From contig OX359201.1 of the NCBI GenBank assembly GCA_947172415.1, forward strand, positions 5,878,501 through 5,942,500: a DNA stretch of 64,000 nt. The letters run 5' to 3'. The stretch is from Chondrosia reniformis. Its lineage: Eukaryota > Porifera > Demospongiae > Chondrillida > Chondrillidae. A model generated the notes under the pieces. The model worked only from the letters and a program-made list of their open reading frames with translations. It had not been told where the DNA came from and did not search any database. Shown here one piece after another: positions 3,001 to 54,410 of the stretch. The number at the start of each line of letters is the position of its first letter. Position 1 is the stretch's first letter. A program made the translations under genes and the position numbers.

Positions 3001-5271
3001 TTAAATATGGCAAAATAATCACCTAAGATTGTTGATTGTCTCGGTTCAAAAAGCCCACAGTGGAGTGAAGCAATAATTTGCCATCACTTGGAATCTCTCA
3101 GATCATTTCCAGTCCTCCTGATATGTCAACACATGTGATGCTGACACCAGTCGTTATCACTTCCTCCCACTAGAGGGGCGTGGTTTGGCTGGTAATAGCT
3201 GTTCCATGACCCAAATGTGTGGCGGCGGGTCTGTTCCAAATATGGTCACTTGTTTATGAGAATAACTGATGGAGTAACTTGGTTAATATGCAGCTGGTTC
3301 TAGTGCTCCATGCATGCATCCTGCCTAGCTGAACCAGAGTACAGCTACACAGGATGCATGCATACAAGAGTGGTTCAATAGAGCATACATTGAATAGAGC
3401 CAAATGCTTCTTCCTATTACCTGCCTAACTACTCATCTCTGATCAACCCGAAAATATTCCTACTTTATTTACTAGCACAACTGATGAAGTTGTGAGCTAA
3501 CTGATTGGTTGACTGTAGAGTGGAGGGTATGATATAGAGCAGGTACTCAGTGATATATGATAATTATGTGGCTTTGAAGGTCAGACTGAAGTATGTGGTT
3601 GTTTGTTTTAGGTAGGGTTTGTATGGGATATACTTCATATTTTGACTAGAAGCAAATCTTAAAAACTACTTTTGATACCTATTTATATGTAATAAGGCCA
3701 ACTGTACAACTATAATAATACTACGATCACAGTATCATCAACAAACCTATCTTATCTTAAAGTTTTCCCATTATACGATATATTATTTAACATGAAATGC
3801 ACGGGTAAAAGTGTCCAACGGTATATTATTTCGATTATGCTTAAGTAATACTTGATTATTATCCATTATGGCCTTAGGGGCCAAGTGGAGTGTGGGTTTA
3901 TGAAGACCATCATTAGTAGTTACCTAATGTATGCGGCATACTGGTTCACGGCCACAATATAAACAAAAAACCTTTCCTTATATGGTAGGGGGATGATGGT
4001 GGTGCTCAGTGAATTTAGTTCTGTCTATTGTGATGGAGACTTGACTGAGTAATGTTTAATGTAGTCATTTCATGTAACAGGCAATGATGTGTGAAGTATC
4101 TAATTTAAGTAATTTGTTTTTCCATTTTGTGGGATTATCGGAGCTTATCTAAATCCAGGCTGATCCGGTATTCCTATAGTAATTTATAATTTTCTAATAA
4201 TCTCTAATAATAGTGTTAATGATATTAAACCTTACCTAGGTTTGTCTTGCTGAAGGAGAGAAATATGCTGTTGACAGTCAAACATGAAGCCAACAGAAGA
4301 GGATTCATCATGCCAGCCCCCACCAGGCTAGGCAAGGTCAATATGCTTACATACAGTAAACTTTATTGCTGAATACCCTAGCTAGATATTTCTGTAATGT
4401 ACATATAGAAATGCCTTTATCACTTAAACCCCTATCTAAGGGCATTAACTTTCTCACAATGTACATGAATTTATATTCAAAAAAAGGATTTCCAGGAGAT
4501 GCAATAAGGTATGAACAAGTTTACCGCTCAATAAAAACAATAGGCTGTTTGAACACTTGGTTAATGATGTGTAGAGTGTGTTTATATTATGAAAAATCTA
4601 AGATACCATTTTCCTACATGCTATGCCTATTTCTGTAAAAGAGCCTATAGGGGAACTAAACCTGAAGAGAGCTTTGGATGAAGATACAGGAGTCTTTTAT
4701 TCCTTCTTTTCCCTTCTTTCATCTTCTTCTCCACTGGGTCAGACAGGCGTTTCTGGGAATTCCACCCTTCATCAGTGATTCTGGGAGTCTTTGTCTTTAT
4801 CTTGATCTTCTGTGAATCCTAATCTTAATATTATGAACATCATATTTATTTGACATAATATTGTTATGCATAGCGTATACAAGACATAGGTTCACTACAT
4901 TTATATTTATTTTAAGGTTTAATTGAGAATTTTGAACTTGTAATGTGATGATTGATCGCCTCACTGAAAAGAGACAATATAACACATAATTTTGTGTTAA
5001 TTTTTAAATTTCACAGCAACCCTATTTTCCTTGCTTTACTATCTAGGTTAAAAATTCAATGGCTATGATCAAAGTAGTCATAGGAGAAAGAGTAAGTGTT
5101 AACTCCAGATATTTTTAATTATTGATATATGCTTTTGGAACTGAAACTGATGTTATCTGCGTTTACCTGTTTTTCTCCACCCAGGAACGAGCTTTAAAGT
5201 TCGCAAAGAATCTGTTGAAAAAAGAAGAACAAGAGACAGAGAGTGAAACACCACTTGATAACAAGAAATAG
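1..5271 (+). CDS. MRPL47: Mitochondrial ribosomal protein L47 (uL29m), 5' end outside window
   Basis: Large-subunit mitoribosome protein of the uL29 family. Four exons can be read: up to about 109 (ending NADLHKLW), 4240-4336 (FVLLKERNMLLTVKHEANRR and on to MPAPTRLGK), 5047-5091 (VKNSMAMIKVVIGER) and 5185-5271 (ERALKFAKNLLKKEEQ to stop). Phases join across GT/AG sites. The HKLW-x-VLLKERNMLLT core and the MPxPxRL motif are typical of animal MRPL47. The protein ends soon after this, shorter than I recall for vertebrate MRPL47. The first visible intron (110-4239) is about 4.1 kb, very long for this window, and carries the 29-bp minisatellite. The N-terminus and transit peptide lie upstream of the window. 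Family assignment is firm; exon borders are by eye. Confidence 0.85.
833..2246. repeat. 29-bp minisatellite, about 49 copies
   Basis: Direct tandem array with a 29-bp unit built on acttccatccatttctctag followed by gacccaccc. Copies differ mainly at a few positions (ccatcc/ccgtcc/ccaccc, tttctc/ttcctc, ctagg/ctggg), and the variants are clustered, which points to growth by local block duplication. It lies inside the first visible MRPL47 intron. A 109-residue minus-strand reading frame inside it is an artefact of a repeat without stops. Confidence 0.97.
2247..4239. other. Rest of the long MRPL47 intron, no gene seen
   Basis: AT-rich intronic sequence with no convincing exon on either strand. 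The only structure noted is a short inverted repeat with 14-bp arms (3310-3323 and 3350-3363, atgcatgcatcctg and its complement) around a 26-nt spacer. Confidence 0.6.
4640..4790 (-). repeat. Dispersed repeat family A, copy 1
   Basis: Reverse-complement copy of a roughly 150-200 bp family seen eight times in this window. Diagnostic pieces are cctatagggg-aactaaacct, gagagctttggatgagga, cttcttctccactgg, and gggaattccacccttcatca. It lies in the MRPL47 intron between the exons ending at 4336 and starting at 5047. Confidence 0.8.
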
Positions 5272-8400: not shown

Positions 8401-11400
8401 AGCTCGGTAAACGTCTCATTTGCTGGAGAAGGTCGCAAGGACAATAAAGGATATATGTGGGCAGATCTTGACACATTGCTAAATTTTACAAATCAGCCAA
8501 ACTCAAGCAGTGTGAGTCACCTTATAACGTATTGGGCACATGAATTCACACAAGTTTCATTCCTCAGTTCACTCATCATGCTGTGTTAATTAATTTTGGT
8601 TAGAAGCCTTGCCCTTTTTAGTTCCCCACCCTATGTGGGTAGGATGGAACAACAGTTCATTGTTGCTGAAGTTGATCCATTTACAAACAAGTTATATTAA
8701 TTCATTAAACCCTGATTAGATTAATGTCATGGATCATCTAGCGCTCTGTAATATTGTTTTTTCTTGTATATAGATTGCAATAGATAGCAAGGGTGGTACG
8801 CTGCATCCAGGTATGGTAAAATGGCTACAGAATCATGGAGCCTATGTAATGAGGACCCTTATCTCACGGTCTCCAACAACAGGTGCTGATGTGGTTGATG
8901 CCAGCTCAACTCAAAGTACCACAGGAATCAGAAGTTCAGAAACTAAAAGTCCACCAGACCCTAATTCAAAGTGGCTTCCTGCTGGTGCCAGACCTTCTGT
9001 TGTCATGACTCCCGCTGTATTTCAACCCATTTCAATGATGCAGCAGATCACTCCAATGAGCGTACAGAATGTTCCAATTTACCCCATTCCTTCTTCTGTA
9101 ATGTATGGACAGCCACCACGAAGTGTGTACCAATCTTTCTTGGTTAAGCAAGCTGCAGATAAAGTGACCCAATCTCATCACCAGCCAAGGCATATCATTT
9201 GCCAGTACTTCTTGAAAGGCTCATGCAAGTTTGGGGGGACATGTAGATATCTTCACCCCAGTATTTCGCAAGGATCCTTCCTTCCATCACCTCTGAACAG
9301 TCCAGCCCCTCCCACTGCTCCTCCCACTACCATTCTTCCTTCCCTGCCTACTACACAGGCATTACCACCTGTTTACCACCAGGTCCAGGTCTCACCCAGT
9401 CTGACTTTACAGCCTGAGCTTCACTCTGCCACTCATGGAATTTTTAGCTCATTACCTTCTCCGACGCAGCCAATTTCTCAGTCAGTATCAACAAGCCATT
9501 TTTTTGATCTAAAATTTGATCTTATCTGCCAAATTAATACCCTGCCCCACGATACCAGTACCAGCCACCCTGAAAGGTCCTCCTTGTTTGATTACATGGT
9601 GCTGCAAGGCAAAATGCTCTATCTAGCTAAAGACCGAGTTATCCAAAACTATAAAGTTATATTTTCGGAAGAATCGTTAGATCAAATCCATCCTGAAGAT
9701 GCCTTTAGTTATGTTGGTAAAGTTGACCTTCAATCACTTAATGTTTCTGAGAGTGACTCTGTATCCAGTTTGTACTCCCCTGTTGACTCAAACAGCATGA
9801 TATGGATGGGAACAAGTCATGGGAGCATCTTGAGATATGACTTTGTCAATCAGAAGATGTTGAAAATTCTAAATGGACAGGTAAGAACTGATGTGACTTC
9901 ACTTATTTAAGTACAGGGAAGCATGCAACAGTGCGTTAGTTCTTGTGCGTAGCTTGTGGAAGTCTTTAAGTAATTGGGGTCAGTGTTTCAAGGAGCGTCT
10001 TTGTTTTCTGTATGGGTTGGGAGTATGACGAAGAATGTTCCAGAAGGTACCTTTTGTTATGAGGATAACATTCCATATGTTGTGAAAATGAATTTCAACA
10101 GATAGGCTAGCATTGGGGGAGCCGCTGAGGTTGAACTTTAGCCCCACACTTACTGATTAAATTATAAAGTTATTCTAAATATGGACCCCAAACTGTGTAG
10201 AACCACAACCCAGCCCCTCTACATGCACAATTAACATGTACCCTATGAATATGATTAACCCTTGTGGACATACTTGCTATGTTTACTTAAGGAGTATAAT
10301 TCCTTACAGCAAGTCAGCTGTGATTAATTGAATTGAACTGGAGGCCATAGAGTTAGCATTTTATTGTCTTCATCTAAATGATTGCCCAGAGGTTGCATTA
10401 ATCCAATTAAGTAAACACTGGGTTTGCCATTTATAGTATGGAATTTTGTATAGTACATGTGCTGTCTGGCTCAGTGGAGAAGAAGAAAACTCTTGTATCC
10501 TCATCCAAAGCTCTTACTAGGTTTAATTTCCTATAGGCCTTTACTCTAAAGTAGATGTAGCATATAAGAAATGGTGTGTTAGATTATTCATGTATTGTTG
10601 GTCTATATACCTACTCCTACTTCCTTGCCATGTGGTATTCCTTCAGTGCCCACTTGGTTACTTTGTTTACATAAGACTTGTATATATAGATGGCCTAAAA
10701 AGGGGAATGGTATAAAGAATCCCCTTGGATATAGAACTTCAAGCCAGTAGCTCTTAAACTGTTTCAAAGGTAGTGAAGTTTTAACTTTCTTTTTATAGAA
10801 TGAACCAGAAATCACTTCTCTCCTCCATTTTGTGAGTGTGGAAAAGGCTCAAGTCGTAGTCGGCGGCAACAAGGTGGGAGTACTCTTCTGGTTCATGCAA
10901 AGAATGGGGCAAGAATTCTCTGTGCTGCTAACAGAGCAGAAACACCATTCTGCCATCACAGCACTGCAGGTATGTGTGGAAGATTAACAAATTTGATTGA
11001 CTTTATTGTTTACAATTGTATTACACCAAATTGGCCATGCTCTTGAACCTCAAATTTATATTATGTAATTAGTAATGCAGTACAGTATAAAGTGGGCTCA
11101 TGGTACGTATATCTGGACATTTATAACCTACTGGCTTCTGCACTATCACACAGATGTATTATCCCAGTGACTGGGAGCTGGCCTTCCTCACCTGTATTGT
11201 ATAGTTCTGTTACTGGGAGATGTGACTGTGAGACTGTCAAATGATTTTAGATTATAAATAGAAATATGCAAACAAACAGATAAAGCAAGAAAGTTATTGA
11301 TTAATGTTTTATTGCATTAGATTACAGGCGATAAAATCATCTCTTCTAGTTCAGACGGGTGTATCCATTTCTGGAGCATATGCAAACCATTGCCTGTTGG

Positions 11401-11902
11401 GATTGGGAGCTTTCAGATTCCCGGTTGTCACTCTCTCTGTTCTCTATACACTGTGGAGAACTTCTCCCAGCTGATATTCATCACTCTCACAAGGCAGCTT
11501 CAGTTCTTTCAGCTTGCTGCAGTGGAGCAAGAGGGAGATGTCTCCCTTAAGATCCCCCAGGCCTGGGTGTTTGGGAATCCCCCTCGGCTTCTCCCCTACA
11601 AGCTTGGACATGATCCTTCCTCAAGCGACCCGCACAGTGTAAGTGGAGTTGTTTCTGCATGCAGCCTGACTATCCCTGGGACAGGCTCTCTGTTCATTAC
11701 CGGACTGAAGCATGGCCATGTGAAGATCTTCTCTATTCCTCAGTTCATCCTCTCTGCTGATCTGATTTTTGAGGACATGAAGGACCATAATTGCGAGTGC
11801 ATCTCAGCAGCCATGTGCACAGGTGTTTCACAGATATTGACTGACATTGTAGTAGCCACTTTATGGTCTAATGGCATCATCAAACTTTTGAGGGTGTCAT
11901 AA
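5438..11902 (+). CDS. Nudix-like + CCCH zinc finger + WD40 protein
   Basis: Multi-exon gene. The first exon (from 5438) reads like the start of a Nudix fold: KVGFAIILTCRENRLEILCV, then KRGH, then GKWSFPGGKLGQGEGTEEAK. The second half of the Nudix box (REVxEExG) is absent from the exon as read (it continues TIARVRAQCGG to a GTGAGC donor), so the catalytic glutamates are lost or supplied by an exon I could not place between 5.64 and 8.29 kb. Later exons: 8288-8513 (YHVFVLDWDKD, NKGYMWADLDTLL), 8775-9880, 10799-10969 and 11321-11902. The 8775 exon holds one CCCH finger (ICQYFLKGSCKFGGTCRYLH, spacing C-x7-C-x5-C-x3-H) in a P/S/T-rich region, followed by beta-propeller-like sequence. WD40-type segments include IISSSSDGCIHFWSI and SLFITGLKHGHVKIFSIPQF. 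CCCH plus WD40 resembles plant zfwd proteins; the Nudix-like head is unusual. That all parts belong to one transcript is inferred from strand, phase and order. Confidence 0.65.
6230..7160 (-). mobile_element. Decayed retroelement fragment (reverse-transcriptase 3' region)
   Basis: On the minus strand, interrupted frames read LPCCMGGIGICNPVTRAP and, further on, FSVYHVLSCNRGVFPIHRHN followed by DLTVELLSEVCHDV. These match the LPxRLGGLGIxNP and HxLSCxRGGFPSxRHNExRD-LT-x-LLxEVCHDV signatures common after reverse transcriptase domains of animal retroelements. Stops and frameshifts are frequent, so it is dead. It occupies the large intron of the Nudix/CCCH/WD40 gene in antisense. Confidence 0.6.
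7161..8287. other. AT-rich intronic stretch, no gene assigned
   Basis: Low-complexity AT-rich sequence with TATA/TGTA microsatellite-like patches near 7960-8180. It may hide a short exon of the Nudix-like gene, but I could not support one. Confidence 0.4.
10455..10595 (+). repeat. Dispersed repeat family A, copy 2
   Basis: Plus-orientation copy: ctgtctggctcagtggagaa, gaaaactcttgtatcctcat, ccaaagctcttactaggttt, tataggcctttactctaaag and gtagatgtagcatataagaa. It lies in an intron of the Nudix/CCCH/WD40 gene. Confidence 0.8.
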
Positions 11903-12113
11903 TTTTAACCTTCGTTTCCATTAATACATTCCTAGGTCTCATTTTCACGTCTGCTTTTCTTTTTGTGTTATTTATTTATTTATTGATAGGTTTAGACTAT
12001 AACCTTTTTAACTAAGACATGATCGCCATCATATGTGACTTTGTAACATAACTTGTTTTGAAACTGAGTATAATGACTTCAGATAGATGGTGAGTATATT
12101 GCGTAATCCTAAA

Positions 12114-13195
12114 ATGGCTCTTTTAACATTGATAGCGCGGGCCTCGGATGGTCTGCCATTATCTTCTTCTTACCAAGGGGAGACGGTAAGCGTGCGCATT
12201 ATAGGACTTTGTTTAGATGTACTGTATAATAAGGGTGCGGTTTGGTGTAATTATGTTTACCTCGTCCTATCCAATTAGAGTACTGTAGGCGACCTCACTC
12301 AGTTTCAGAATAAGGCCAAAGCGATATTTAAAAGCCTCACTCACCAATCGCCCACAAAGTGCACCATAGAAAGTCCACCTTTGGTATTCCAGTAAGTTTG
12401 CCAGTTCGCCTAATCTTCTCGGAATGTTAATTTAGTAGTGTATTTCTCATAAGGTTTAATATGAGTATATATATTATTACCGACAATATATCTGCGGTTT
12501 TCTTTATTTTTTCCTTTAAAATTTGTGTTCATTTAAGTAAGTTCATTAAATCAATTCTTCTACTAGTTACTATATTGAAGAAGGCATTTGTTATTTATGT
12601 CTTTGTGAGCCCTCCTATCCGACTGGACTTGCCTATGAATACCTTAAAGCTGTGAGCGAAGCCTTCTCTGAACAAGGTCACAAGATATATGAATCTCAGA
12701 GACCATATCACTTCATTGAATTTGGTCAGTTGTGCCTTATGAGTATAGTCTGATGAAATCAGACCCTATTCTTACACAATAATTGTGTAAGAATGGGCTC
12801 TGATTTCATCAGACTGCCTCATGAGTGTTTGCACCATAAACAAAGATGTCTGCTATACCAGAATAATTGTCCCCAATAGGAACTGAGATTGAAAAGCTGA
12901 AAAAGAGCTTCAATGAAAATAGACCTCGATCTCAGTTGTCTCACGTAGCAGGTGAATTGCAGGGAGTACAGCGTATCATGTTTGAGAACATTGATGCAGT
13001 CATAAAGAGAGGGGAAAAACTGGAATGTAAGGACGTTGTCAACTCATCCTATTACATAGATTTGTGGTAGTTACACTAGTGGACATTGTTATGGCAATTT
13101 GTTACATCTTCTGTCCGTTGCGTCAGCCATCTTTGTTTATTCATGTAGTTTTGACAGAGAAGACAGGTAGATTAGCGATGGATTCACAGAAGTAG
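12114..13195 (+). CDS. SEC22: SEC22-like R-SNARE, copy 1, truncated before the membrane anchor
   Basis: Same exons as copy 2: MALLTLIARASDGLPLSSSY, then GDLTQFQNKAKAIFKSL, then YYIEEGICYLCLCEPSYPTG (longin domain), then the start of the SNARE motif (SQLSHVAGELQGVQRIMFEN, IDAVIKRGEKLE). The last exon runs EKTGRLAMDSQK and hits TAG at 13193-13195, created at the duplication breakpoint. The product would lack the end of the SNARE helix and the transmembrane anchor, so it would be soluble and probably unable to drive fusion. Its exons could also splice into copy 2's terminal exon, which would restore a full protein. Copies differ by very few bases, so it is a recent duplicate or an assembly artefact. 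Confidence 0.8.
12747..12815. repeat. Near-perfect hairpin (MITE-like) in SEC22 copy 1 intron
   Basis: The arm agtctgatgaaatcagaccc-tattcttacacaat (12747-12780) is followed at once by its reverse complement, with one imperfect position and almost no loop. It is too long and regular for chance and looks like a short foldback element. The duplicate lies at 14064-14132. Confidence 0.85.
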
Positions 13196-13435
13196 TCTAA
13201 TGGCATCATCAAACTTTTGAGGGTGTCATAATTTTAACCTTCGTTTCCATTAATACATTCCTAGGTCTCATTTTCACGTCTGCTTTTCTTTTTGTGTTTA
13301 TTTATTGATAGGTTTAGACTATAACCTTTTTAACTAAGACATGATCGCCATCAGATGTGACTTTGTAACATAACTTGTTTTGAAACTGAGTATAATGACT
13401 TCAGATAGATGGTGAGTATATTGCGTAATCCTAAA

Positions 13436-14620
13436 ATGGCTCTTTTAACATTGATAGCGCGGGCCTCGGATGGTCTGCCATTATCTTCTTCTTACCAAGG
13501 GGAGACGGTAAGCGTGCGCATTATGGGACTTTGTTTAGATGTACTGTATAATAAGCGTGTGGTTTGGTGTAATTATGTTTACCTCGTCCTATCCAATTAG
13601 AGTACTGTAGGCGACCTCACTCAGTTTCAGAATAAGGCCAAAGCGATATTTAAAAGCCTCACTCACCAATCGCCCACAAAGTGCACCATAGAAAGTCCAC
13701 CTTTGGTGTTCCAGTAAGTTTGCCAGTTCGCCTAATCTTCTCGGAATGTTAATTTAGTAGTGTATTTCTCATAAGGTTTAGTATAAGTATATTATTACCG
13801 ACAATATATCTGCGGTTTTCTTTATTTTTTCCTTTAAAATTTGTGTTCATTTAAGTAAGTTCATTAATCAATTCTTCTACTAGTTACTATATTGAAGAAG
13901 GCATTTGCTATTTATGTCTTTGTGAGCCCTCCTATCCGACTGGACTTGCCTATGAATACCTTAAAGCTGTGAGCGAAGCCTTCTCTGAACAAGGTCACAA
14001 GATATATGAAGCTCAGAGACCATATCACTTCATTGAATTTGGTCAGTTGTGCCTTATGAGTATAGTCTGATGAAATCAGACCCTATTCTTACACAATAAT
14101 TGTGTAAGAATGGGCTCTGATTTCATCAGACTGCCTCATGAGTGTTTGCACCATAAACAAAGATGTCTGCTATACCAGAATAATTGTCCCCAATAGGAAC
14201 TGAGATTGAAAAGCTGAAAAAGAGCTTCAATGAAAATAGACCTCGATCTCAGTTGTCTCACGTAGCAGGTGAATTGCAGGGAGTACAGCGTATCATGTTT
14301 GAGAACATTGATGCAGTCATAAAGAGAGGAGAAAAACTGGAATGTAAGGACGTTGTCAACTCATCCTATTACATAGATTTGTGGTAGTTACACTAGTGGA
14401 CATTGTTATGGCAATTTGTTACATCTTCTGTCCGTTGCGTCAGCCATCTTTGTTTATTCATGTAGTTTTGACAGAGAAGACAGGTAGATTAGCGATGGAT
14501 TCACAGAAGTACAAGACTTCAGCAAGACAACTTAACCTGTCCACTTCTCTAGCAATGAAGATTGCGTTAGCTGTGGGTGTCTTTCTTTTCATTTTGTTTA
14601 TTTACTTTTGGTTCTTTTGA
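13436..14620 (+). CDS. SEC22: SEC22 R-SNARE, intact copy 2
   Basis: ER-Golgi vesicle SNARE with an N-terminal longin domain (MALLTLIARASDGLPL; YYIEEGICYLCLCEPSYP; QRPYHFIEF), a SNARE helix (ELQGVQRIMFENIDAVIKRG, then EKTGRLAMDSQKYKTSARQL) and a C-terminal membrane anchor (MKIALAVGVFLFILFIYF) ending in a few residues, as expected for a tail-anchored SNARE. The central arginine of R-SNAREs is present in GVQRIM. Five exons are separated by short introns. Its promoter region is the duplicated tail of the WD40 gene, so upstream control should match copy 1. Confidence 0.93.
14064..14132. repeat. Same hairpin in SEC22 copy 2 intron
   Basis: Identical in arm sequence to the hairpin of copy 1, so it predates the 1.3-kb segmental duplication. 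Confidence 0.85.
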
Positions 14621-14796: not shown

Positions 14797-17432
14797 TTAG
14801 GAGTCCCAGTCTTCTTCAGGCTGACCTGTGACAATTGTGTCTTGGTTGTCTTCATCCTTATCAGTCCACTGGTCATCTGCCTCCTCTGGGCTATCAATGG
14901 TGTCTGCTACACAGAGAGTAACTACATTATCTTTCAAAGTTAGGTCCTCGCACGAAGTTAAGACTTTCCTATAATACACATATGCACAATATGAATATAT
15001 CTTTCGGATGATTTGGGGTTAGAAAGGGGTTAGTCGCTAAAGAAGACCCTTGGGTTCAAAACATTTGAAAAAAGATTTATTGAACTGTCTTGAGACGCCT
15101 AAAAAGTTGAAAGATGAACCATCTAAAAGATAAATTTGACCCTTATTCTATATGAATATAGTACTGTAATACCTATATATATAAACTACGTATTAACATA
15201 TACATATACATAATGATAGATCTTTTACAACGAGGCTCACAATAAGAGAATTTCAATGGTTAACTGCTTGTATGGTACATCTTTAAAATGATTGGGGATC
15301 AAGGAAGACTATTAAAGAACTGTGTCTAATTAAAATCTAAATGCCCATTTTACCTTAAGTATTCTTTGTTGCCATCAGTTAGCTTTTGAATGCTGTGGAA
15401 ACCCATTAACTTGTCAATGGTAACAATACTATTTTCCGTAAAACAACCGTTTTCATGTTTATCAGTTTCCAAAACAGTTCCTTCCTCACAGCTGCTCTGC
15501 TCCATCCAATACAGTAGGTATCTGGTGTAATAGATCACTTGATTGATCAACTGGTCTTCTACTGAACTGTCTTCAGCAGCAAGATAAACACCTTCAGACA
15601 CCTATATACCATGGACCAACCACAAACCTTAAATACTTGCTATTCAGCCACAAAAGAATATACCAACTGCATATGTCCTTAGAAGTTGAAAATGAACTAT
15701 CTAAAAGATATGTTCAATGCAGTTAGAAGAAGCACAAAGTTAGTTATTCTATCATCTATGTACAGTATCCTTAATTACTTAAAATTGAGGAGTTGAAACT
15801 CTGAAATATTTAATTCTTATTTCTGTACATCAGGTGGTTCATAGGATGTGAGCCAACCAATAGAATAAGCAGCTTGTTTCCATTAAGATGTGTTACAAAT
15901 GTATTATATATAAAATCTCATTTTCCCGCAGATATAGTTTACATTCATACGAGGCGGAGGAAACAGATGAATAGAATAGACTAATATCTTCCTACACTCA
16001 ATTCAGTCATGTGACTTTCTCTGAAGGATCCCATTGGTTGGAGGTCACATGATCAGCAGTTATTACATATAGTCTATCCTAGACTCATTACTTAGGGAAA
16101 GCCTATAGAACATACGATGAGGATACAGTTTTTTACAAACAACTTTCTTCCTTTTTTCCACTGAGTCAGAGACATACGTACGTATACTATTCTATACTAT
16201 TACAAACTTATGCAAGAGTTGATACTTGTTATCTGTATGACATTGAATCACTCACAAATGTGTATGGCAAATTTTCAGGATCCATCTTCACAACTTTATC
16301 TTGCCTCTCAAAACGTCTTGTAAATATTGCAATCTGACTACAAAACCCAACCATTTCAAAACCAGGTGTTGGTTTACCAACTCCAGTATACTCTACACTA
16401 TAATTGTAACTTTTTGAAATGTTTGAACACCATTTGGTAAATTCTTTTCTTGTCCATTCAAACTTGTGATCCCAATGTCGAAAACCAGTGAAATTGGGAA
16501 ATAGAACATTATATTCAGAATTAGGCGTGGATACAATTGCATAACAAGGTTGCAGCTGCCCGAAGACTACTTCTGGAAGCTTAGATAGTGTATTCGGGTG
16601 AAGATGTTCAATTCTAAAAGAAATACAAAAAGAAGACAAAGACTCCCAGGGTCACTGATGAAGGGTGGAATTCCCAGAAACAGCTGTCTAGCTAATGGAG
16701 AAGTGGAGAAAAGGAAAAAGAAATCCTCATTCAAAGCTCTATATACGTACTTAACCTATGTCTCATAATTATATTCTTTATGTTACCTTTAGCCTCATAT
16801 GATGTAGGAAATGGTAATTTAGATTATTTGTGTGTATATATGTAGATATGTACTATTCATCACTAACAGTTCAATCATGGAAATCACATCAGCATTTTGC
16901 ATGCGAGCATCATAGTCCCCAACAGAACCTGTAAACAAAGTGACATCTGTTGCCATGGTTTCAAAGTACACCACGCCCACTCACCCTCAAATAGTCTAAT
17001 ACACAAAGCCTTTTCTCTACGAATCAGAAAATCTGTGGTAAGCGGTTGTATAGCTTTTGATCGGCCCTTCAGTAGCTGTCCATCTATATCTACTCCAAAT
17101 ACTTCCTCAACTGATGGACTCTCCTTTAGCCTTCGTACGAGTTTACATTTAGCACACCCGAAATCTACCACCTAAATAAAGGTGCACACGTCTATATAAT
17201 CTACGTATATAGAGACTAGTCATACGTACGGTAGCCTACATATGAAGAACATGCCTGCAGCTGCGTATTTAAGTTGATAGCTCGTCTTATGAATTACCTT
17301 TCTAGCCTTAACGCGGTCAACTAAGTTAGTAACCATCGTGTAACGTTGGATGTACAAAGGAGGACTGAACAGAGCGGTAGTTTCTTTGTCTTTGTGCGAG
17401 TCAGCCATTTTATGATTAATTGGGCTAGCCAT
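14797..17432 (-). CDS. HENMT1: HEN1-type small-RNA 2'-O-methyltransferase
   Basis: Methylates the 3'-terminal ribose of piRNAs and related small RNAs, protecting them. Exon 1 (about 17299-17432) has the family start FSPPLYIQRYTMVTNLVDRV; a second in-frame ATG at 17408 (MADSHKDK) is an alternative start. Exon 2 gives the SAM-binding loop VVDFGCAKCKLVRRLK and the acidic EVFGVDIDG. Exon 3 (VGDYDARMQNADVISMIE) joins exon 4 to make the metal-binding E-L-I-E-H motif. Exon 4 has LPEVVFGQLQPCYAIVSTPN and WDHKFEWTRKEF with the second metal-binding histidine. All key catalytic residues are present. The C-terminal exons (15354-15602 and about 14797-14950) are acidic and poorly conserved. It is transcribed toward SEC22, and its start lies 10 bp from a duplicated EHBP1 3' end. 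Confidence 0.93.
14990..15145 (+). repeat. Dispersed repeat family B, copy 1
   Basis: Shares gtcgctaaagaagacccttg, ggttcaaaacat, aactgtcttgagacgcct and aagatgaaccatctaaaaga with copies near 20795-20965 and, in part, 15655-15745, 60840-60895 and 63400-63520. It lies in a HENMT1 intron. Confidence 0.65.
16620..16745 (+). repeat. Dispersed repeat family A, copy 3
   Basis: Contains gactcccagggtcactgatg, aagggtggaattcccagaaa, cagctgtctagc and aatcctcattcaaagctct. It is truncated at its right end and lies in a HENMT1 intron. Confidence 0.8.
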
Positions 17433-17442
17433 TTAAATTCAT

Positions 17443-17722
17443 ATTAACAAAATTCATTAATTATTCCAATGCACATATATAAATATGCTTGCAATATATA
17501 TAAATGTTACAACTGACAAATGTATTAAACATCATGTATACATTTACAAAATCAAAAAATACAATTCAAATAGAAGAATCATGATTACATAATGGAGCAG
17601 TCTTTTTGCTTGGCATATTTGTGGACAGTGATATCTGGCACATGATCACGAGCTTTTTCTAACTGCTCAGTTTCATCTTCTTTGCTAAAGTATATTTACT
17701 AGTATATGACTGACTGATTCTG
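17443..17722 (-). pseudogene. Duplicated EHBP1 terminal exon and 3' UTR
   Basis: Nearly the same sequence as 19214-19525. On the minus strand it still encodes the EHBP1 C-terminus ([32 protein letters not shown], stop) and matches the 3' UTR down to about 10 bp from the HENMT1 start codon. It is cut off from the rest of EHBP1 by the insert that carries the 662-bp candidate ncRNA, so in the simplest model it is a stranded duplicate. It could still act as an alternative terminal exon if transcription reads through the insert. Confidence 0.85.
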
Positions 17723-18092
17723 ATGATATCTGGTTTTGGCCTATAACTGTAGTTGTTGTCCTGTTTCTTCCCACATTTTGTCTCTGTAGACACTAAACCT
17801 ATCTTATTACTGCTATAAACTGTCACAGAGTTCTTTGGGCACAATTCACAAATCTCTGCTTCATCGGTTTAAGCGTTTTACAGATTTAATAACGTTTAAC
17901 TGCTGGTCAGCGTGAGATTAAGAAAAGCTTCGGAGAGATTCGACAGACGACTTCTTTAGGCATCACAAATTTGTAATGTTCTCAAATTCATCAAGGACTG
18001 CGATGATTTCGCGCCTCTTCAATTTTGTAGCACTTCGTCAGCCATTTTGTATCTCTTGCGAAAGTTGGTAGAAGCCAACGCATAATTAACGC
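17723..18092 (-). other. Left module of the inverted repeat: decayed divergent gene start
   Basis: Matches, in inverse, the plus-strand stretch 54411-54815. On the minus strand it begins aaaatggctgacgaagtgct (start-codon context like other genes here) and contains a broken frame with LKRREIIAVLDEFENI and then EICELCPKNSVTVYSSNKIG and STETKCGKK. The other copy reads ICELCPICSSKNSVTVYSSN, so copy A has a short deletion. Both copies have stops and frameshifts. It looks like the 5' end of a gene once arranged head-to-head with the 662-bp sequence. I do not recognise the family. Confidence 0.5.
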
Positions 18093-18170
18093 TGACGTCA
18101 TCTAAACACGTGACCGGAAATTCCTAATAAGGAGTTTGCGCGGGAAAATTTGAATGCAGCCATATAAAAG
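18093..18170 (+). promoter_or_regulatory. TATA promoter with CRE, E-box, ETS and E2F-like sites (copy A)
   Basis: The sites in order are TGACGTCA (18093-18100), CACGTG (18107-18112), CCGGAA (18114-18119), an E2F-like TTTGCGCGGGAA (from about 18135) and TATAAAAG (18163-18170). All are kept in the inverted copy (TGACGTCA at 54403-54410, TATAAAAG at 54333-54340) although bases between them differ. The TATA box sits about 20-25 bp ahead of the perfectly conserved block, so it should drive its transcription rightward. Confidence 0.65.
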
Positions 18171-18189
18171 ATGGCGAGGTGTGAAAAAT

Positions 18190-18846
18190 TTCAGTTTACC
18201 CCCAGTGGCTTACTTGACGCGTGAGATTGCTAAAGTTTCTGTGCCTGACGGTGGTCTTTCCTTATCCCGAGTAGTCCTGTTCGGAGCGCTAGACAAGTAG
18301 ACCCAGGATTCCCCTCGGCTCCGCCAGCGAGCCGAGAATGCGGCCTGGTGTCACGTTGGATATGCAATCTGATCAGGAACTCAGTGGGAGGGTTGGTGCT
18401 TGGGATTGGTCCTCACTAGCTCTGGCTTCGGCTGGGGTCTGACGGCACGGAGATTGAGGTGATCACGTAACTATGTAAGTTGAAGTCGGTTGTCGACACC
18501 TGATTTGGGCAGTTGTTTCGCCAGTCCCCACTTCAAGGACGTCATCCGATCCTGAGGAGTTAAAGGTGTGGCAACACACTGATTCTCATCGGGGCAGTTT
18601 GCGGTTCGGGAGGGTCGGACTTGGCATAGGCTGAAAGTGAGGCTAACGCTGATCGATTCCTATGTCATGGCTAGTAACTCCATGAGTGCAGATTACTGCG
18701 CAGTTACAGCTTCTGTTACACAATAGTTAGTGTCAACGCTGTGGGGTGGGGCACGATGTACTTTCACCTCCTCGTGGTGTGCCCTGGGGCAACTCTACTT
18801 GAGTTGTGCTGAGAGAAGTACATGACCAGTTTCAAGATTTATTTTT
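18190..18846 (+). ncRNA. Candidate structured ncRNA, about 650 nt, copy A
   Basis: The block 18184-18845 is identical base for base to the complement of 53658-54319, with no difference in 662 bp, while the 134 bp upstream differ at 6 positions and the downstream flank has many indels. It holds no open frame of 60 codons on either strand and is GC-richer than its surroundings. A TATA box precedes it and a TTTTT run (18842-18846) ends it; no run of four T occurs inside. Predicted stems include CTCGGCT/AGCCGAG (18314-18320 with 18330-18336) and a junction closed by ATGTACTT/AAGTACAT (18756-18763 with 18816-18823), enclosing CACC/GGTG and CAACTC/GAGTTG hairpins. This fits a type-3 Pol III or short Pol II RNA gene. 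Which RNA it is I cannot say; RNase P, RNase MRP and 7SK are candidates to test. Start and end are inferred. Confidence 0.55.
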
Positions 18847-19213
18847 CTCAAGTTAAGTCAATTATGATATGAAACATGATTATTATTTCATGTATATTTC
18901 ATTCTGTAGAATTAGGAGGAGCTGTTGTGTCTTGAAATGCAGATTGTATTTGTTATGTATGATGAAATTTTTTTCCCAAATCTTAACTACTTATATTCCT
19001 CACCATTATTTGGGACCATGTTTGTAATATAGAAAAATAAAATTTTTACATGTTTATAAAATATTCTTGATAATGGTTACTCCACTTTGGTTTCAGACTT
19101 CAGTAAGGGTGCAACTGATATAAGAACAAGCATGAGCCCTGCGGGAAAGATTACTGCATGATATGCTCTTGTCCAGCCAAGGTTACAAAGTACATTACAG
19201 TCATTTTATACTT
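18847..19213. other. Right part of the insert, between candidate ncRNA and EHBP1 3' UTR
   Basis: AT-rich. The first 90 bp or so match copy B with indels; the rest is unique here. A short plus-strand frame near 19120-19200 reads HEPCGKDYCMICSCPAK, cysteine-rich but too short to assign. Confidence 0.4.
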
Positions 19214-19525
19214 ATTAACAAAAATTCATTAATTATTCCAATGCACATAAATATATATACATATATAATATGATGCTTGCAATATATATAAATGTTACAA
19301 TTGACAAATGTATTAAACATCATGTATACATTTACAAAATCAAAAAATACAATTCAAATAGAAGAATCATGATTACATAATGGAACAGTCTTTTTGCTTG
19401 GCATATTTGCGGACAGTGATATCTGGCACATGATCACGAGCCTTTTCGAACTGCTCAGTTTCATCTTCTTTACTAAAGTATAGAGAATCATATTTACTAG
19501 TATATGACTGACTGATTCTGACAAC
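19214..19525 (-). repeat. EHBP1 3' exon/UTR, duplicated copy still attached to the gene
   Basis: Direct-repeat partner of 17443-17722. The copies differ by several substitutions and small AT indels (for example an extra atatataca step here), so the duplication is not brand new. This copy supplies the real EHBP1 terminus. Confidence 0.9.
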
Positions 19526-29153: not shown

Positions 29154-33084
<3,931 letters not shown>

Positions 33085-44439: not shown

Positions 44440-45714
44440 TTAGTATACCCTATCATGAACCGTGGAGGACACATTTAGAGGATTAGTCTGTCTTTGTGCA
44501 GGAGGGGCTGGGCCTGCCCTCCGCCTGGCTGCATGCAACTCAAACATTGAAATGGTGACTTTAGATAGAGTGACTTTGGGGTCACTTGGCATTGGGTCTG
44601 TCCAAAAGAAGTCGTGATTGAGGACAGAGTCACTGTCAATTCTTCTCTTCGGATCAAGGGTGAGAAGTCTATCTAAGAGTTCTAAAGCGTGGCTATCTTT
44701 GATGTGGTGTTTTAGTCTCTCCTTAACCCTTCTACTGCTCTTTTGAGGCAGCTTCAGCTTTTGAAAGAGATCCAATTTGACTACATCGGGCCAAATCTCA
44801 GGAGTTATAGACCCACACAACAGGCTGATAAACTCCAACTGGTTCTGCTCATTTTTTCCTTGCATTATGGGACTGCGAGTCCACATTTCAGCCATAATAC
44901 AGCCAGCTCCCCAAAGATCAATGGCTGGGGTATAGTGCCTGTCTCCAAGCAGTATTTCAGGTGGACGATACCAAAGGGTGACTACTCTGTTTGTAAAACG
45001 TTGTGATTTTGAACTAAATGTACGAGCTAATCCAAAGTCTGTCAACTTTAAAACTCCCTCCTTAGTTATTAGAATGTTGGAAGCCTTCATGTCACGATGC
45101 AGTATCTTATTTTGATGGATAAAGTACAGTCCATTAAACATTTGCTGCAATAACTTCTTCTTCTCTCCCAAACTGAATTCTATTTGAGGAGTACTCAAAA
45201 GCCCTGCCAAGTCATGCTCACAAAATTCCAGAACCAACCAAATACTTCCCTTATCCTTGTTGTAGGGACTTGCTGTGAATTTGAATACAGAAATAGTATA
45301 TCTTTACCATAACAACTAATATCAGACTTACGCTTGGATCGACATATTTCTATCAATTCAACCACGTTGGCGTGTTTCAACATTTGTAAGATTTTTATCT
45401 CCCGCAATGAAGTTAAGGGAAACTAAAAGATGGAATCACCATTTACTCAATCTTATCATTTAAAATATGACGATTCAGTGTACTCACACCCTCTTTTTCA
45501 TTCTCTAGTCGAACCTTTTTCAAAGCGACAAGTCTCCCCGTCTGTCTGTCCTGGGCTTTGTGAACCTCTCTGCCATCGAAAGCCAAAGTGACTTACATAT
45601 TAACTAAGCAAGAGTCCCTACGTAACCTTACCCAAACGTCCCTTCTCCCACTTTTGTCAGGCGTTCATATTTTGCGACATCTTGGCAGAAGGGATATGGA
45701 TCTTTAGCAGCCAT
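44440..45714 (-). CDS. CDK9: Cyclin-dependent kinase 9 (P-TEFb kinase)
   Basis: Phosphorylates the Pol II CTD, DSIF and NELF to release paused polymerase. Start MAAKDPYPFCQDVAKYERLT; glycine loop VGEGTFG-KVHKA; PITALRE-type helix reads FPLTSLREIK, close to the CDK9 signature; catalytic loop ILHRDMKASNIL; LTDFGLAR; T-loop FTNRVVTLWYRPPEILLG with the activating threonine. The C-lobe has YTPAIDLWGAGCIMAEMWTR and LLDRLLTLDPKRRIDSDSVL. It ends with HDFFWTDPMPSDPKV and a basic/proline tail like CDK9. All catalytic residues are intact. Five or so exons. Head-to-head with RPS16, tail-to-tail with ZFAND4. Confidence 0.97.
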
Positions 45715-48281: not shown

Positions 48282-50848
48282 ATGGATCCTTATGCTGAAG
48301 GCCCAATTTATACATCAGAACAAATTAAAGTACCACCAGAGTTACCGCAGGTTATAAAGGAGTACACTAAAGCGGCAATTAGATCGCAGCCCGCGGATCT
48401 CATCCAGTGGAGCTCGGCGTGAGTTTCTCTGGCTTAGCCAAGTCTGTCTCTCTGCCATTGATTTCAATCACGTTGGTCTGCAGCTATTTTACTGCTCTGA
48501 ATTCCTCGAAAGTTCCTCCAGTTAAAGAGAGATTTGAAGACGTTTCGCAGGCTGAAGATAGTGCTGTAACTAAAGGCAAGCTCCAAGTTTTGAACAAGCA
48601 GGTACAGTTGCTCGCTATCTACATGCAAGCAATGGTATACATGTATCTGATGCAATTGTCTAGCTCCTTGAACAGGAAACTGTGGACAGATCAGATTTGC
48701 TGCAATACTGGAAAGCTGTCGGGTGCAGTGAAGATCCTTTTGTGGACCTTCTAAGGTACCATGTGGGTATGGTACCATGTGCTCTTCTCCATCTCATACC
48801 TCTATTTTATAGCTTAGGTGGATTTGAAGATCAAGTGCCTTGGAAAAAGTTTCTTGTCCTAGCTTGTTCTTCAATTGCACCAGTGAGTTGTGCTGTAGTA
48901 TTGCACTATTTTAATTTGAGTCAAAATATGTATGTATACGTGTATATGTATCAGAGAGTACGGTAGTACTCTCTAAGTAGGAATGGCCGGAAAAAAAAAT
49001 GGCCGCCCTATCCAATGTATTAGCAATCAACACCTAATAAATCGCCAACGAAGCGATTTTCGGTTATATTCGGTTATTTGCAGCGATTAATGCACGCTTT
49101 CCTAAATGCCAAAACATGTTTCGACGCTCTACACGCTCTATAGCGTTCAAAAAGCGGCTAACTAGGAATAGACCCACTTCCAAAATTCATTTTTTCTTCT
49201 TCTTCTTCTTCTTCTTCTTCTTCTTTTATTGAATAGACTAGCGCTAATATGCGAACTTGTGCGGGCACGTACTAGTTATAAATCGTCATAAATATTTCGG
49301 AACTAGGGAATAGACAGCCCTAAATCTGAATGCGCTCTACAATAAACATGTTAATTGTGAAGAGCGAAAATTGTGGTCTTCTCGGACGCCATTTTTTAAT
49401 TAAGAGATCATGGCTTTTCGGTATATTTCTCTTGTCTAAGACGTTATTTTGAGATCTTCGCCAAGAAAACTTTCAAATCAATTTAAAACAAGTAATATTA
49501 AGAGGAAAAAAGGGGGAATACAAGTAAATAAAAAACATTTACAAAAATGATGTTAGAAGTAGAAATGGCAGTGTTCACTAATACATCTGCAAAAAGTATC
49601 GAAACAAGACACTAATTATATGATAAGGCTAATCATACAGAAGTTGCATATATACTGAAATTTAAGTAACTTAACCATACACTTCTGTGTTTGGGCGCAC
49701 CATTCCTACTTAAGGTTAGTGCGCCCAAACACAGAAGTGTATGGTTAAGTTACTTAAATTTCAGTATATATGCAACTTCTGTATGATTAGCCTTATCATA
49801 TAATTAGTGTCTTGTTTCGATACTTTTTGCAGATGTATTAGTGAACACTGCCATTTCTACTTCTAACATCATTTTTGTAAATGTTTTTTATTTACTTGTA
49901 AATAATAAACATGTAGTCCCCTTATACTCCCTCTCTCTCCCTCTCCCTCTCCCTCTCCCTCTCCCTCTCCCTCTCCCTCTCCCTCTCCCTCCCTCTCCCT
50001 CTCCCTCTCCCTCTCCCTCTCCCTCCACTTCCCTTCCGCTACAAATATATATATATAGTATGTATACTAGCTGACAAAGTACATAGTAGAGTTCTTGTCT
50101 ATTTGAATGTCTTTCATCAACAGGACCTACCTAATGCTTTAAAGTTGCTTTGTGAGATCCTTACTACTGAACCTGATGGGAGTGCTTGTAGAATTAATTA
50201 TGACGAGTTTGAATCGCTCTACACCTTTTTGGCAGAAGTGGATGGGAACGTTGAGATGAGCCAAGTAAAGTCTGTTCTTGATTACCTCAAGTCAGACCCT
50301 GTGTACGTTTATCTCTGATTGATTCAAGCATGTGATAATTGTATGATATGCAGGACATTTTAACATTTTGTTTGACAAGAGTTTGACCCACTGGGACGTC
50401 CCCTAACTATGTATTCATTTACTTAATATGAAGAAAGATTAGAATTTAGTCACGTTGAAATTGTGCAATTTGTACCACCTTCTATCTAATCCCTCAACTT
50501 CTCGCCTATACTTAATAACTTAGGAACAGAGGCTATTGATTTACAAGACACAATCTACGTACGTATGTTTCCATATACATATGAATTATCTTAAGCCTCG
50601 TATTCCAAATACTATAGTTATCATACCTATGAAGCTAAGAGAATAGACTAAAACACAATTTTTATTAGATTTAGGGCAAACCTATGTAGAGATATATATT
50701 ACAATACCGCACATCATGTATGTATGTATGTATGGGAATGCTTTATAACGTATAAGTGTTAATGTTTGTTTGCAGTCCCAGGTTTGGAGGACAGGTTGGT
50801 CCAGGTGACTTTCTACATCAGAATTGTCCGTCTCTAACATCATCATGA
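48282..50848 (+). CDS. ROPN1L: Ropporin-like RIIa-domain protein
   Basis: Sperm/cilium fibrous-sheath and radial-spoke protein that binds AKAPs through an N-terminal RIIa-like dimerisation domain. Exon 1 starts MDPYAEGPIYTSEQIKVPPE, then LPQVIKEYTKAAIRSQPADL and IQWSSAYF, closely matching IPPELPxMLKEFxKAAIRxQPxDLIQWxxDYF. Later exons give VPPVKERFEDVSQAEDSA, LLQYWKAVGCSEDPFVDLLR, FEDQVPWKKFLVLACSSIAP and FESLYTFLAEVDGNVEMSQV, each with a counterpart in ROPN1/ROPN1L. The last exon is PRFGGQVGPGDFLHQNCPSL. The intron 48882-50122 holds the TIR element, the palindrome and a CCCTCT array. Confidence 0.92.
48974..49712. mobile_element. Putative TIR element, about 740 bp
   Basis: The 13-bp inverted ends taagtaggaatgg (48974-48986) and ccattcctactta (49700-49712) bound AT-rich sequence with a TTC microsatellite (about 49196-49225). 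There is no coding capacity. Target-site duplication is not clear. Its right end falls exactly in the loop of the palindrome. Confidence 0.4.
49521..49898. repeat. Perfect palindrome, 180-bp arms, 18-nt loop
   Basis: Bases 49521-49700 are the exact reverse complement of 49719-49898, and the loop is 49701-49718. There is no mismatch over 180 bp, so it is very young or maintained. It lies in a ROPN1L intron, so the pre-mRNA would contain a 180-bp dsRNA hairpin. Confidence 0.97.
49925..50030. repeat. CCCTCT hexanucleotide array
   Basis: Nearly pure (ccctct)n run of about 17 units, just after the palindrome, before the next ROPN1L exon. Confidence 0.95.
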
Positions 50849-53657: not shown

Positions 53658-54313
53658 AAAATAAATCTTGAAACTGGTCATGTACTTCTCTCAGCACAAC
53701 TCAAGTAGAGTTGCCCCAGGGCACACCACGAGGAGGTGAAAGTACATCGTGCCCCACCCCACAGCGTTGACACTAACTATTGTGTAACAGAAGCTGTAAC
53801 TGCGCAGTAATCTGCACTCATGGAGTTACTAGCCATGACATAGGAATCGATCAGCGTTAGCCTCACTTTCAGCCTATGCCAAGTCCGACCCTCCCGAACC
53901 GCAAACTGCCCCGATGAGAATCAGTGTGTTGCCACACCTTTAACTCCTCAGGATCGGATGACGTCCTTGAAGTGGGGACTGGCGAAACAACTGCCCAAAT
54001 CAGGTGTCGACAACCGACTTCAACTTACATAGTTACGTGATCACCTCAATCTCCGTGCCGTCAGACCCCAGCCGAAGCCAGAGCTAGTGAGGACCAATCC
54101 CAAGCACCAACCCTCCCACTGAGTTCCTGATCAGATTGCATATCCAACGTGACACCAGGCCGCATTCTCGGCTCGCTGGCGGAGCCGAGGGGAATCCTGG
54201 GTCTACTTGTCTAGCGCTCCGAACAGGACTACTCGGGATAAGGAAAGACCACCGTCAGGCACAGAAACTTTAGCAATCTCACGCGTCAAGTAAGCCACTG
54301 GGGGTAAACTGAA
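53658..54313 (-). ncRNA. Candidate structured ncRNA, copy B (inverted)
   Basis: Exact reverse complement of the 18190-18845 block. It has its own TATAAAAG (complement of 54333-54340) and upstream CRE, E-box, ETS and E2F-like sites. It ends in a run of four T rather than five, still enough for Pol III. Unlike copy A it has no EHBP1-derived direct repeats around it, so it may be the older location. Confidence 0.55.
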
Positions 54314-54332
54314 ATTTTTTACACCTCGCCAT

Positions 54333-54410
54333 CTTTTATATGGCTGCATTCAAATGTTCCCGCGCAAACTCCTTATTAGGAATTTCCGGTCACGTGTTGA
54401 GATGACGTCA
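54333..54410 (-). promoter_or_regulatory. TATA promoter of copy B
   Basis: TATAAAAG (complement of 54333-54340), an E2F-like gcgcgggaac, CCGGAA, CACGTG and TGACGTCA (54403-54410) occur in the same order and spacing as in copy A, with changes only between sites. Confidence 0.6.

Follow-up and report, generated by a model that had tools for sequence, protein, structure and literature searches.

Here we report that a 662-bp block of the sponge Chondrosia reniformis, carried in two inverted copies by the 64-kb stretch analysed (chromosome 13, 5878501-5942500; this whole stretch is called the window below), is probably a Pol II gene whose product is a structured noncoding RNA, about 555-575 nt long, with a 3' end that would be made by predicted ribozyme cleavage. 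The block appears to belong to a large family in this sponge, with some four hundred related RNA genes. Tentatively, and with doubt slightly outweighing confidence, we extend this to a class of about 400 host genes under E2F/CRE promoters tied to proliferation, the products of which are structured nuclear RNAs, transcribed by Pol II and in part spliced, that owe their mature 3' ends to an encoded HDV-like ribozyme; the evidence base is two families in one species. The assembly of C. reniformis, odChoReni1.1, has 14 chromosomes, and an RNA-seq run for the species (ERR10177766) is named in the same source (accessible part of PMC12181767).

The block at 18184-18845 is the exact reverse complement of 53658-54319, as a first-pass annotation of this DNA had claimed. 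The six differences counted there in the 134 bp before the block are five base changes and one single-base indel, and the sequence 3' of the two copies is indel-rich, as also described. The 662-bp limits reflect only the closeness of the two window copies; over 56 non-redundant copies of the same family (family A), the near-invariant part runs from about 18193 to 18822. The features of both copies are as follows.

18093-18170, plus strand: promoter of copy 1, with motifs found in both window copies and kept in most of the diverged copies displayed
18093, plus strand: CRE-like TGACGTCA of the copy 1 promoter
18107, plus strand: E-box CACGTG of the copy 1 promoter
18114, plus strand: ETS-like CCGGAAAT of the copy 1 promoter
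18123, plus strand: CCTAATAAGG of the copy 1 promoter
18135, plus strand: E2F-like TTTGCGCGGGAA of the copy 1 promoter
18163-18170, plus strand: TATA box TATAAAAG of the copy 1 promoter
18193-18747, plus strand: RNA body of copy 1 (about 555 nt), putatively starting at the A of TCAGTT and ending at the predicted cut
18748-18822, plus strand: predicted HDV-like ribozyme of copy 1, with predicted cleavage between 18747 and 18748
18748-18754 with 18779-18785, plus strand: P1 of the copy 1 ribozyme
18757-18764 with 18815-18822, plus strand: P2 of the copy 1 ribozyme
18766-18768 with 18776-18778, plus strand: P3 of the copy 1 ribozyme
18789-18794 with 18802-18807, plus strand: P4 of the copy 1 ribozyme
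18809, plus strand: putative catalytic C of the copy 1 ribozyme, in J4/2
18823-18845, plus strand: last part of the 662-bp identity, left out of the RNA core since its conservation across the full set of copies is lower
53681-53755, minus strand: predicted HDV-like ribozyme of copy 2, with predicted cleavage between 53756 and 53755
53756-54310, minus strand: RNA body of copy 2, identical to copy 1
54333-54410, minus strand: promoter of copy 2, from the CRE-like motif at 54410 to TATAAAAG from 54340, in minus-strand reading

Protein coding was rejected, as the RNA part holds no sense ATG frame above 34 aa: the longest ATG-started sense frame in 18193-18747 has exactly that length, bearing out the earlier remark on the lack of a long ORF, and the longest stop-free sense stretch is 56 codons. 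Minus-strand RNA was set aside as well, with a folding z of -1.04 against -2.82 for the plus strand (20 shuffles each). A direct repeat of 87.7% identity, at 17427-17723 and 19199-19521, flanks copy 1.

In a 40-copy alignment of family A, mean conservation per 20 bases was 0.95-1.00 at 0-640, then 0.88 for 40 bases and 0.40-0.80 after that, and on the upstream side 0.62-0.95 in the last 140 bases, which hold the promoter, and 0.43-0.72 farther up. Mean identity, taken per aligned base over 300 sampled pairs of the 56 non-redundant copies (decayed L053 and L069 and 12 double-fetched loci having been dropped from these identities and from the rates below), was 98.9% for the body, 98.1% for the ribozyme, 81.5% for the promoter, 69.3% for the far 5' sequence, 73.1% for the 3' flank and 61.6% for unrelated window stretches. 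The near-invariant run stops at 18822, the last base of P2, so that the boundary of conservation is the end of the HDV-like ribozyme, about 20 bases before the T-run at which it had been placed. The reported deficit of differences relative to the flank rate is real: nearest-neighbour substitutions came to 202/21357 in the block, 447/9637 in the 5' flank and 487/6413 in the 3' flank, sums that count reciprocal pairs twice and cover 34 of the 56 rows, namely those whose 5' flanks differ by less than 12%, the 22 rows at 12% or more being left out. The block rate is about one fifth of that of the 5' flank and one eighth of that of the 3' flank, and the equal divergence inside and outside the block that had been named as a possible refutation was not found.

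In family A and in a homologous family B alike, the conserved part finishes at its 3' side with a predicted HDV-like ribozyme. The covariance-model search suggested by the first-pass annotation gave no Rfam 15 match at gathering score anywhere in the 64-kb window; below that score, at relaxed thresholds, three HDV-type models, RF00094 and RF02682 among them, matched over 18746-18823 on the plus strand. The RF02682 match scored 26.6 bits against a gathering score of 44, with an E-value of 0.013 in the 1-kb stretch 18000-19000, and in longer sequence the HDV-type E-values were poor (0.036 to 0.94). Genome-wide, RF00094 reached at best 31.6 bits against a gathering score of 50, with a best E-value of 0.49 (86 of 711 candidates scored); at E<=1 it gave at least 10 matches, the six that were fetched all being the end of a family B body, and two further matches adjoin listed family B bodies. 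The same search also matched in 2 of 14 control genomes, none above the cut-off.

Ribozyme cores were fetched with a pattern spanning only P3, L3 and the P1 3' strand with the following GGG. Of the 98 fetched cores (double-fetched loci included), 95 nevertheless have the elements outside this pattern, namely the 5' strand of P1 and the two strands of P2, the exceptions being L069 and L083, with the P1 5' strand unmatched, and L086, with P2 unmatched. With these three excluded, the 95 cores represent 33 distinct sequences (alignment A2), and the pair counts of P1 and P2 come from rows selected for having those strands. Over the 33 rows, 97.2% of 790 cells in the whole ribozyme structure were paired, and 47 cells were double-changed; shuffles averaged 18.3, and none of 500 reached the observed count. 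Two other counts did not exceed the control, with 150 of 500 shuffles as high for pairs with change on both sides and 493 of 500 for further pair types.

Among the individual helices, P4 was left free in all selections; 94.4% of its cells are paired, four of its six pairs show double changes, and it is built from different pairs in families A and B. P1 has all seven pairs in all 33 distinct rows, without variation, and its first pair is the G.U at the cleavage site; P1 of HDV-like ribozymes is 6-7 bp long (accessible part of PMC4908430). The pseudoknot helix P2, which lies outside the nested structure of the Rfam models, has 8 pairs, where about 7 bp are expected of an HDV-like ribozyme, with 96.2% of its cells paired and little variation; of the 33 rows, 24 keep its pair 11-86 and 32 its pair 17-80. 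P3, with 99.0% of cells paired, likewise varies little and is largely fixed by the fetch pattern. In P1.1, the CC of L3 and the GGG after P1 are invariant and therefore carry no pairing signal. The J4/2 cytosine (C18809), whose role we take to be catalytic, is invariant in the 33 rows and aligned with the C of the Rfam model. A model built from A2 (R1), which includes the window copy among its own sequences, found only the two known places in the window, at 103.7 bits each, copy 2 at 53680-53756.

The block had been described as present twice, which holds for the window; genome-wide there are 83 places with a family A body and some 330 relatives. These pattern counts allowed up to 3 mismatches, and the reversed-pattern control gave 0 every time. 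Family B has 331 exon-2 places and 320 exon-1 places, and there are 417 ribozyme cores (reversed control 0); since 83 and 331 add up to 414, the body and ribozyme counts nearly agree. A DNA search for the block scored the best 40 of 436 candidates, every listed one at 98% or above. The 81 exact-core places, which were treated as family A and include one mere fragment (L069), lie largely (75 of 81) in the outer quarter at either chromosome end (binomial p 3e-16 against one half). Family B places, among the matches listed, are scattered along contigs 1-4. A strict body pattern had 0 matches in the prokaryotic (genome_contigs) and viral (viral_contigs) collections, which, given their content, says little on other sponges.

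Family B bodies stand in front of the one-mismatch ribozymes L077-L090, with the exception of L088, which is an A copy. The body is about 570 nt long, in two exons around a short intron. Both sites of a GT...AG intron of 73-117 nt, with the form GTTGGTT or GTTAGTT...YAG, were found in all 18 family B copies examined, the splice sites being predicted from sequence; L083, which lacks the body, was excluded from this comparison beforehand. Over 17 copies (L085 was excluded from pairwise means), identity was 95.2% and 96.5% in the exons, 88.0% in the intron and 78.7% after the ribozyme. Close family B pairs mostly repeat this pattern: substitutions between L089 and L090 follow it (32/247 upstream, 1/297 in exon 1, 3/108 in the intron, 1/277 in exon 2 and 9/57 after the ribozyme), and L078 and L079 depart from it in one respect, with 1/59 after the ribozyme. 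On contigs 1-4, 93 of 100 listed exon-2 places were paired with a listed exon-1 place, and the estimated intron was 40-200 nt in 91 of these 93 pairs, one of the others being longer and one shorter; the shorter one retains the intron. Because the intron is less alike than both exons, DNA gene conversion alone is hard to fit, and the pattern points to selection at the RNA level on family B genes.

The two families are related beyond the ribozyme. Three of eight comparisons aligned about 280 bases of the 3' half of A and B with 61-64% identity, and in the remaining five the alignment fell into two shorter pieces of 75-80%. A shared fold of this half (A3), predicted on the same alignment rows that were used for counting (on the A side the first 12 of 18 distinct stretches, on the B side all 16), had 99.5% of 1175 cells paired and 111 double-changed cells against 48.1 in shuffles, and much of this covariation is a single A/B split. 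Here too the control was not exceeded for pairs with change on both sides (449/500) or further pair types (219/500). In minimum free energy (MFE) folds of A bodies, from which L047, L053, L069 and L070 were dropped, the ends are predicted to pair, 5' CCCC with 3' GGGG; the B copy L085 was likewise left out of the folding. The L094 fold pairs GGCCTCCGG with CCGGAGGCC just upstream of the ribozyme, and end pairing fails in B copies like L081, with the 3' end TAAACAATTTTT.

Judged by its motifs, the predicted promoter is of the TATA/Inr type with E2F/CRE/E-box-like elements. The upstream box TATAAAAG starts at 18163 as had been claimed, and the CRE/E-box/ETS/E2F-like sites noted with it were recovered in both window copies; our assignment of the copy 1 motifs to CRE, E-box, ETS and E2F factors is presumptive. 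An Inr-like TCAGTT lies 30 bp after TATAAAAG and family A conservation starts there, which is consistent with a transcription start near 18193, the A of this motif. Upstream of family B, TTCCCGCC occurs within 60 bases of TCAGTC in all five stretches fetched; the box is TATAAATA in two of them and AATAAATA in three, and by a count made by eye it stands 23 bp before the A of TCAGTC, compared with 30 bp in A. At the other end of the gene, about 25 bp past the ribozyme, a moderately conserved CTCAAGTTAAG at 18847-18857, also found in other A copies, is perhaps a termination signal.

Based on these observations, we suggest that Pol II would start near 18193 and transcribe through the ribozyme, that in family B the intron would be removed by splicing, and that the ribozyme would fold and cut between 18747 and 18748. 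HDV-like ribozyme cleavage leaves a 2',3'-cyclic phosphate, and the product released would be a non-polyadenylated RNA of defined length (555-575 nt) with such an end, the piece downstream of the cut being discarded. Selection would act on the RNA and not on a protein, most likely through a cellular role needing many gene copies, which is the weakest step of the explanation. The many gene copies, the proliferation-type promoter motifs and the structure together suggest an abundant cellular RNA as the product. If this is true, a normal animal gene leaves to a ribozyme what Integrator, RNase P or poly(A) processing otherwise do, and RNA-catalysed 3'-end formation in such a gene would become directly testable. 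It would also add a large RNA family that Rfam 15 misses at gathering scores, and show that annotation at those scores can overlook hundreds of ribozymes per genome.

The main rival, to which we allow a real if minor chance, is a selfish non-autonomous mobile RNA element with its own promoter and ribozyme, of which only intact copies spread and are therefore over-represented. About 414 dispersed places, exact cores on all 14 chromosomes and some decayed copies (L053, L069 and L083, the last retaining only part of its ribozyme) would suit such an element, and genomic self-cleaving ribozymes seem mostly linked to retrotransposons or other mobile elements (accessible part of PMC7761336). However, the search for transposon ends found no shared terminal direct or inverted repeats: in a self-comparison of 70 sequences (12 double-fetched), 11 had direct repeats across the block, at differing places, and 2 had inverted pairs. 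Family A also lacks shared sharp homology ends, the pairwise ends being scattered and the flanks decaying. Family B copies retain their intron, and retrocopying of spliced RNA was rejected, with no intronless copy among the 93 paired places on contigs 1-4 (one longer place left aside). Even the nearest copies are 5-8 times less different in the block than in the flanks, which speaks against dead insertions, for which no such reduction is expected. Retrozymes, in the partly accessible literature, are likewise numerous and dispersed noncoding units that have their own promoter and a self-cleaving ribozyme, but differ by hammerhead ribozymes in LTRs and by circular RNA; as to flanking repeats of the retrozyme type, none of the direct repeats in the 11 of 70 sequences includes the ribozyme.

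The other readings are far less probable. A type-3 Pol III RNA gene with its terminus at the T-run, proposed in the first-pass annotation with 7SK, RNase P and MRP in mind, seems very improbable: the TATA box near -30 and the absence of internal TTTT, confirmed for 18193-18747, agree with it, but the start is Inr-like, conservation stops at the ribozyme and not at the T-run, the window has no gathering-score Rfam match, and 7SK, RNase P and MRP are not among the six Rfam matches at E<=5 in 18000-19000. The GT...AG intron of the homologous family B likewise argues for Pol II. Of the earlier interpretation, the conserved structured RNA gene with decaying flanks stands and the Pol III type falls. 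Slightly less probable again is that the ribozyme is the 5' end of a downstream R2/LINE-type retroelement and the upstream block incidental; HDV-like ribozymes do occupy 5' ends in R2 and L1Tc, according to sources accessible in part, but here the conserved body lies upstream of the ribozyme, and the downstream sequence is far less conserved than the body in both families. An assembly duplication or a single recent segmental duplication, suggested by two exact copies in one window, has a negligible chance and is refuted for the family as a whole by the differing flanks of the copies and the 83 body places genome-wide.

The host RNA gene that we favour shares with known HDV-like ribozymes (RF00094, RF02682 and RF01787) the P1-P4 topology, the G.U at the cleavage site, the J4/2 C and the L3, TCCTCGT here and TCCCCGC in L091; the predicted sponge ribozymes differ in scoring below Rfam gathering and in their place, directly 3' of a conserved RNA body. 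Multicopy snRNA-type genes, we presume, are alike in having a conserved RNA body and promoter motifs with decayed flanks, whereas the sponge family has no Rfam match, an apparently ribozyme-made 3' end and an intron in family B. In the partly accessible literature, HDV-like ribozymes are known in R2, L1Tc, other LINEs and a CPEB3 intron; those of animal genomes lie mainly at the 5' ends of retroelements, besides the one in a mammalian intron. R2 and L1Tc also carry genomic eukaryotic HDV-like ribozymes, but at the 5' end of the element, whereas the conserved RNA here is the upstream product; the CPEB3 ribozyme, also within a Pol II gene, is intronic in a protein-coding gene. Within the literature covered, with subscription papers mostly outside its scope, we found no description of this family, of an HDV-like ribozyme in a sponge nuclear gene or of any family of sponge noncoding RNA genes terminated by a ribozyme, and the use of an HDV-like ribozyme for trimming the end of an RNA gene appears not to have been described there.

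Elsewhere, the window has no tRNA genes. It encodes a protein-kinase domain at 44443-45303 on the minus strand, by eye presumably of the cyclin-dependent type, and a CCCH zinc finger exon at 8774-9907 on the plus strand; for the remaining five open frames of the scan, Pfam gave nothing at 0.001. A head-to-tail duplication of about 1.33 kb at 11866-14511 is 98.3% identical and overlaps the end of the open frame 11321-11902, and a near-perfect palindrome of 382 bp (97.4%) lies at 49519-49900. Minisatellite-like arrays at 830-2249 and 31735-32801, with steps of about 58 and 62 bp, show strong strand skew. A repeat of about 110-225 bp, possibly a SINE or MITE, is dispersed over both strands, with copies 75-88% alike among the matches listed (at 4588, 10461, 16626, 24559, 40977, 55384, 55651 and 62075).
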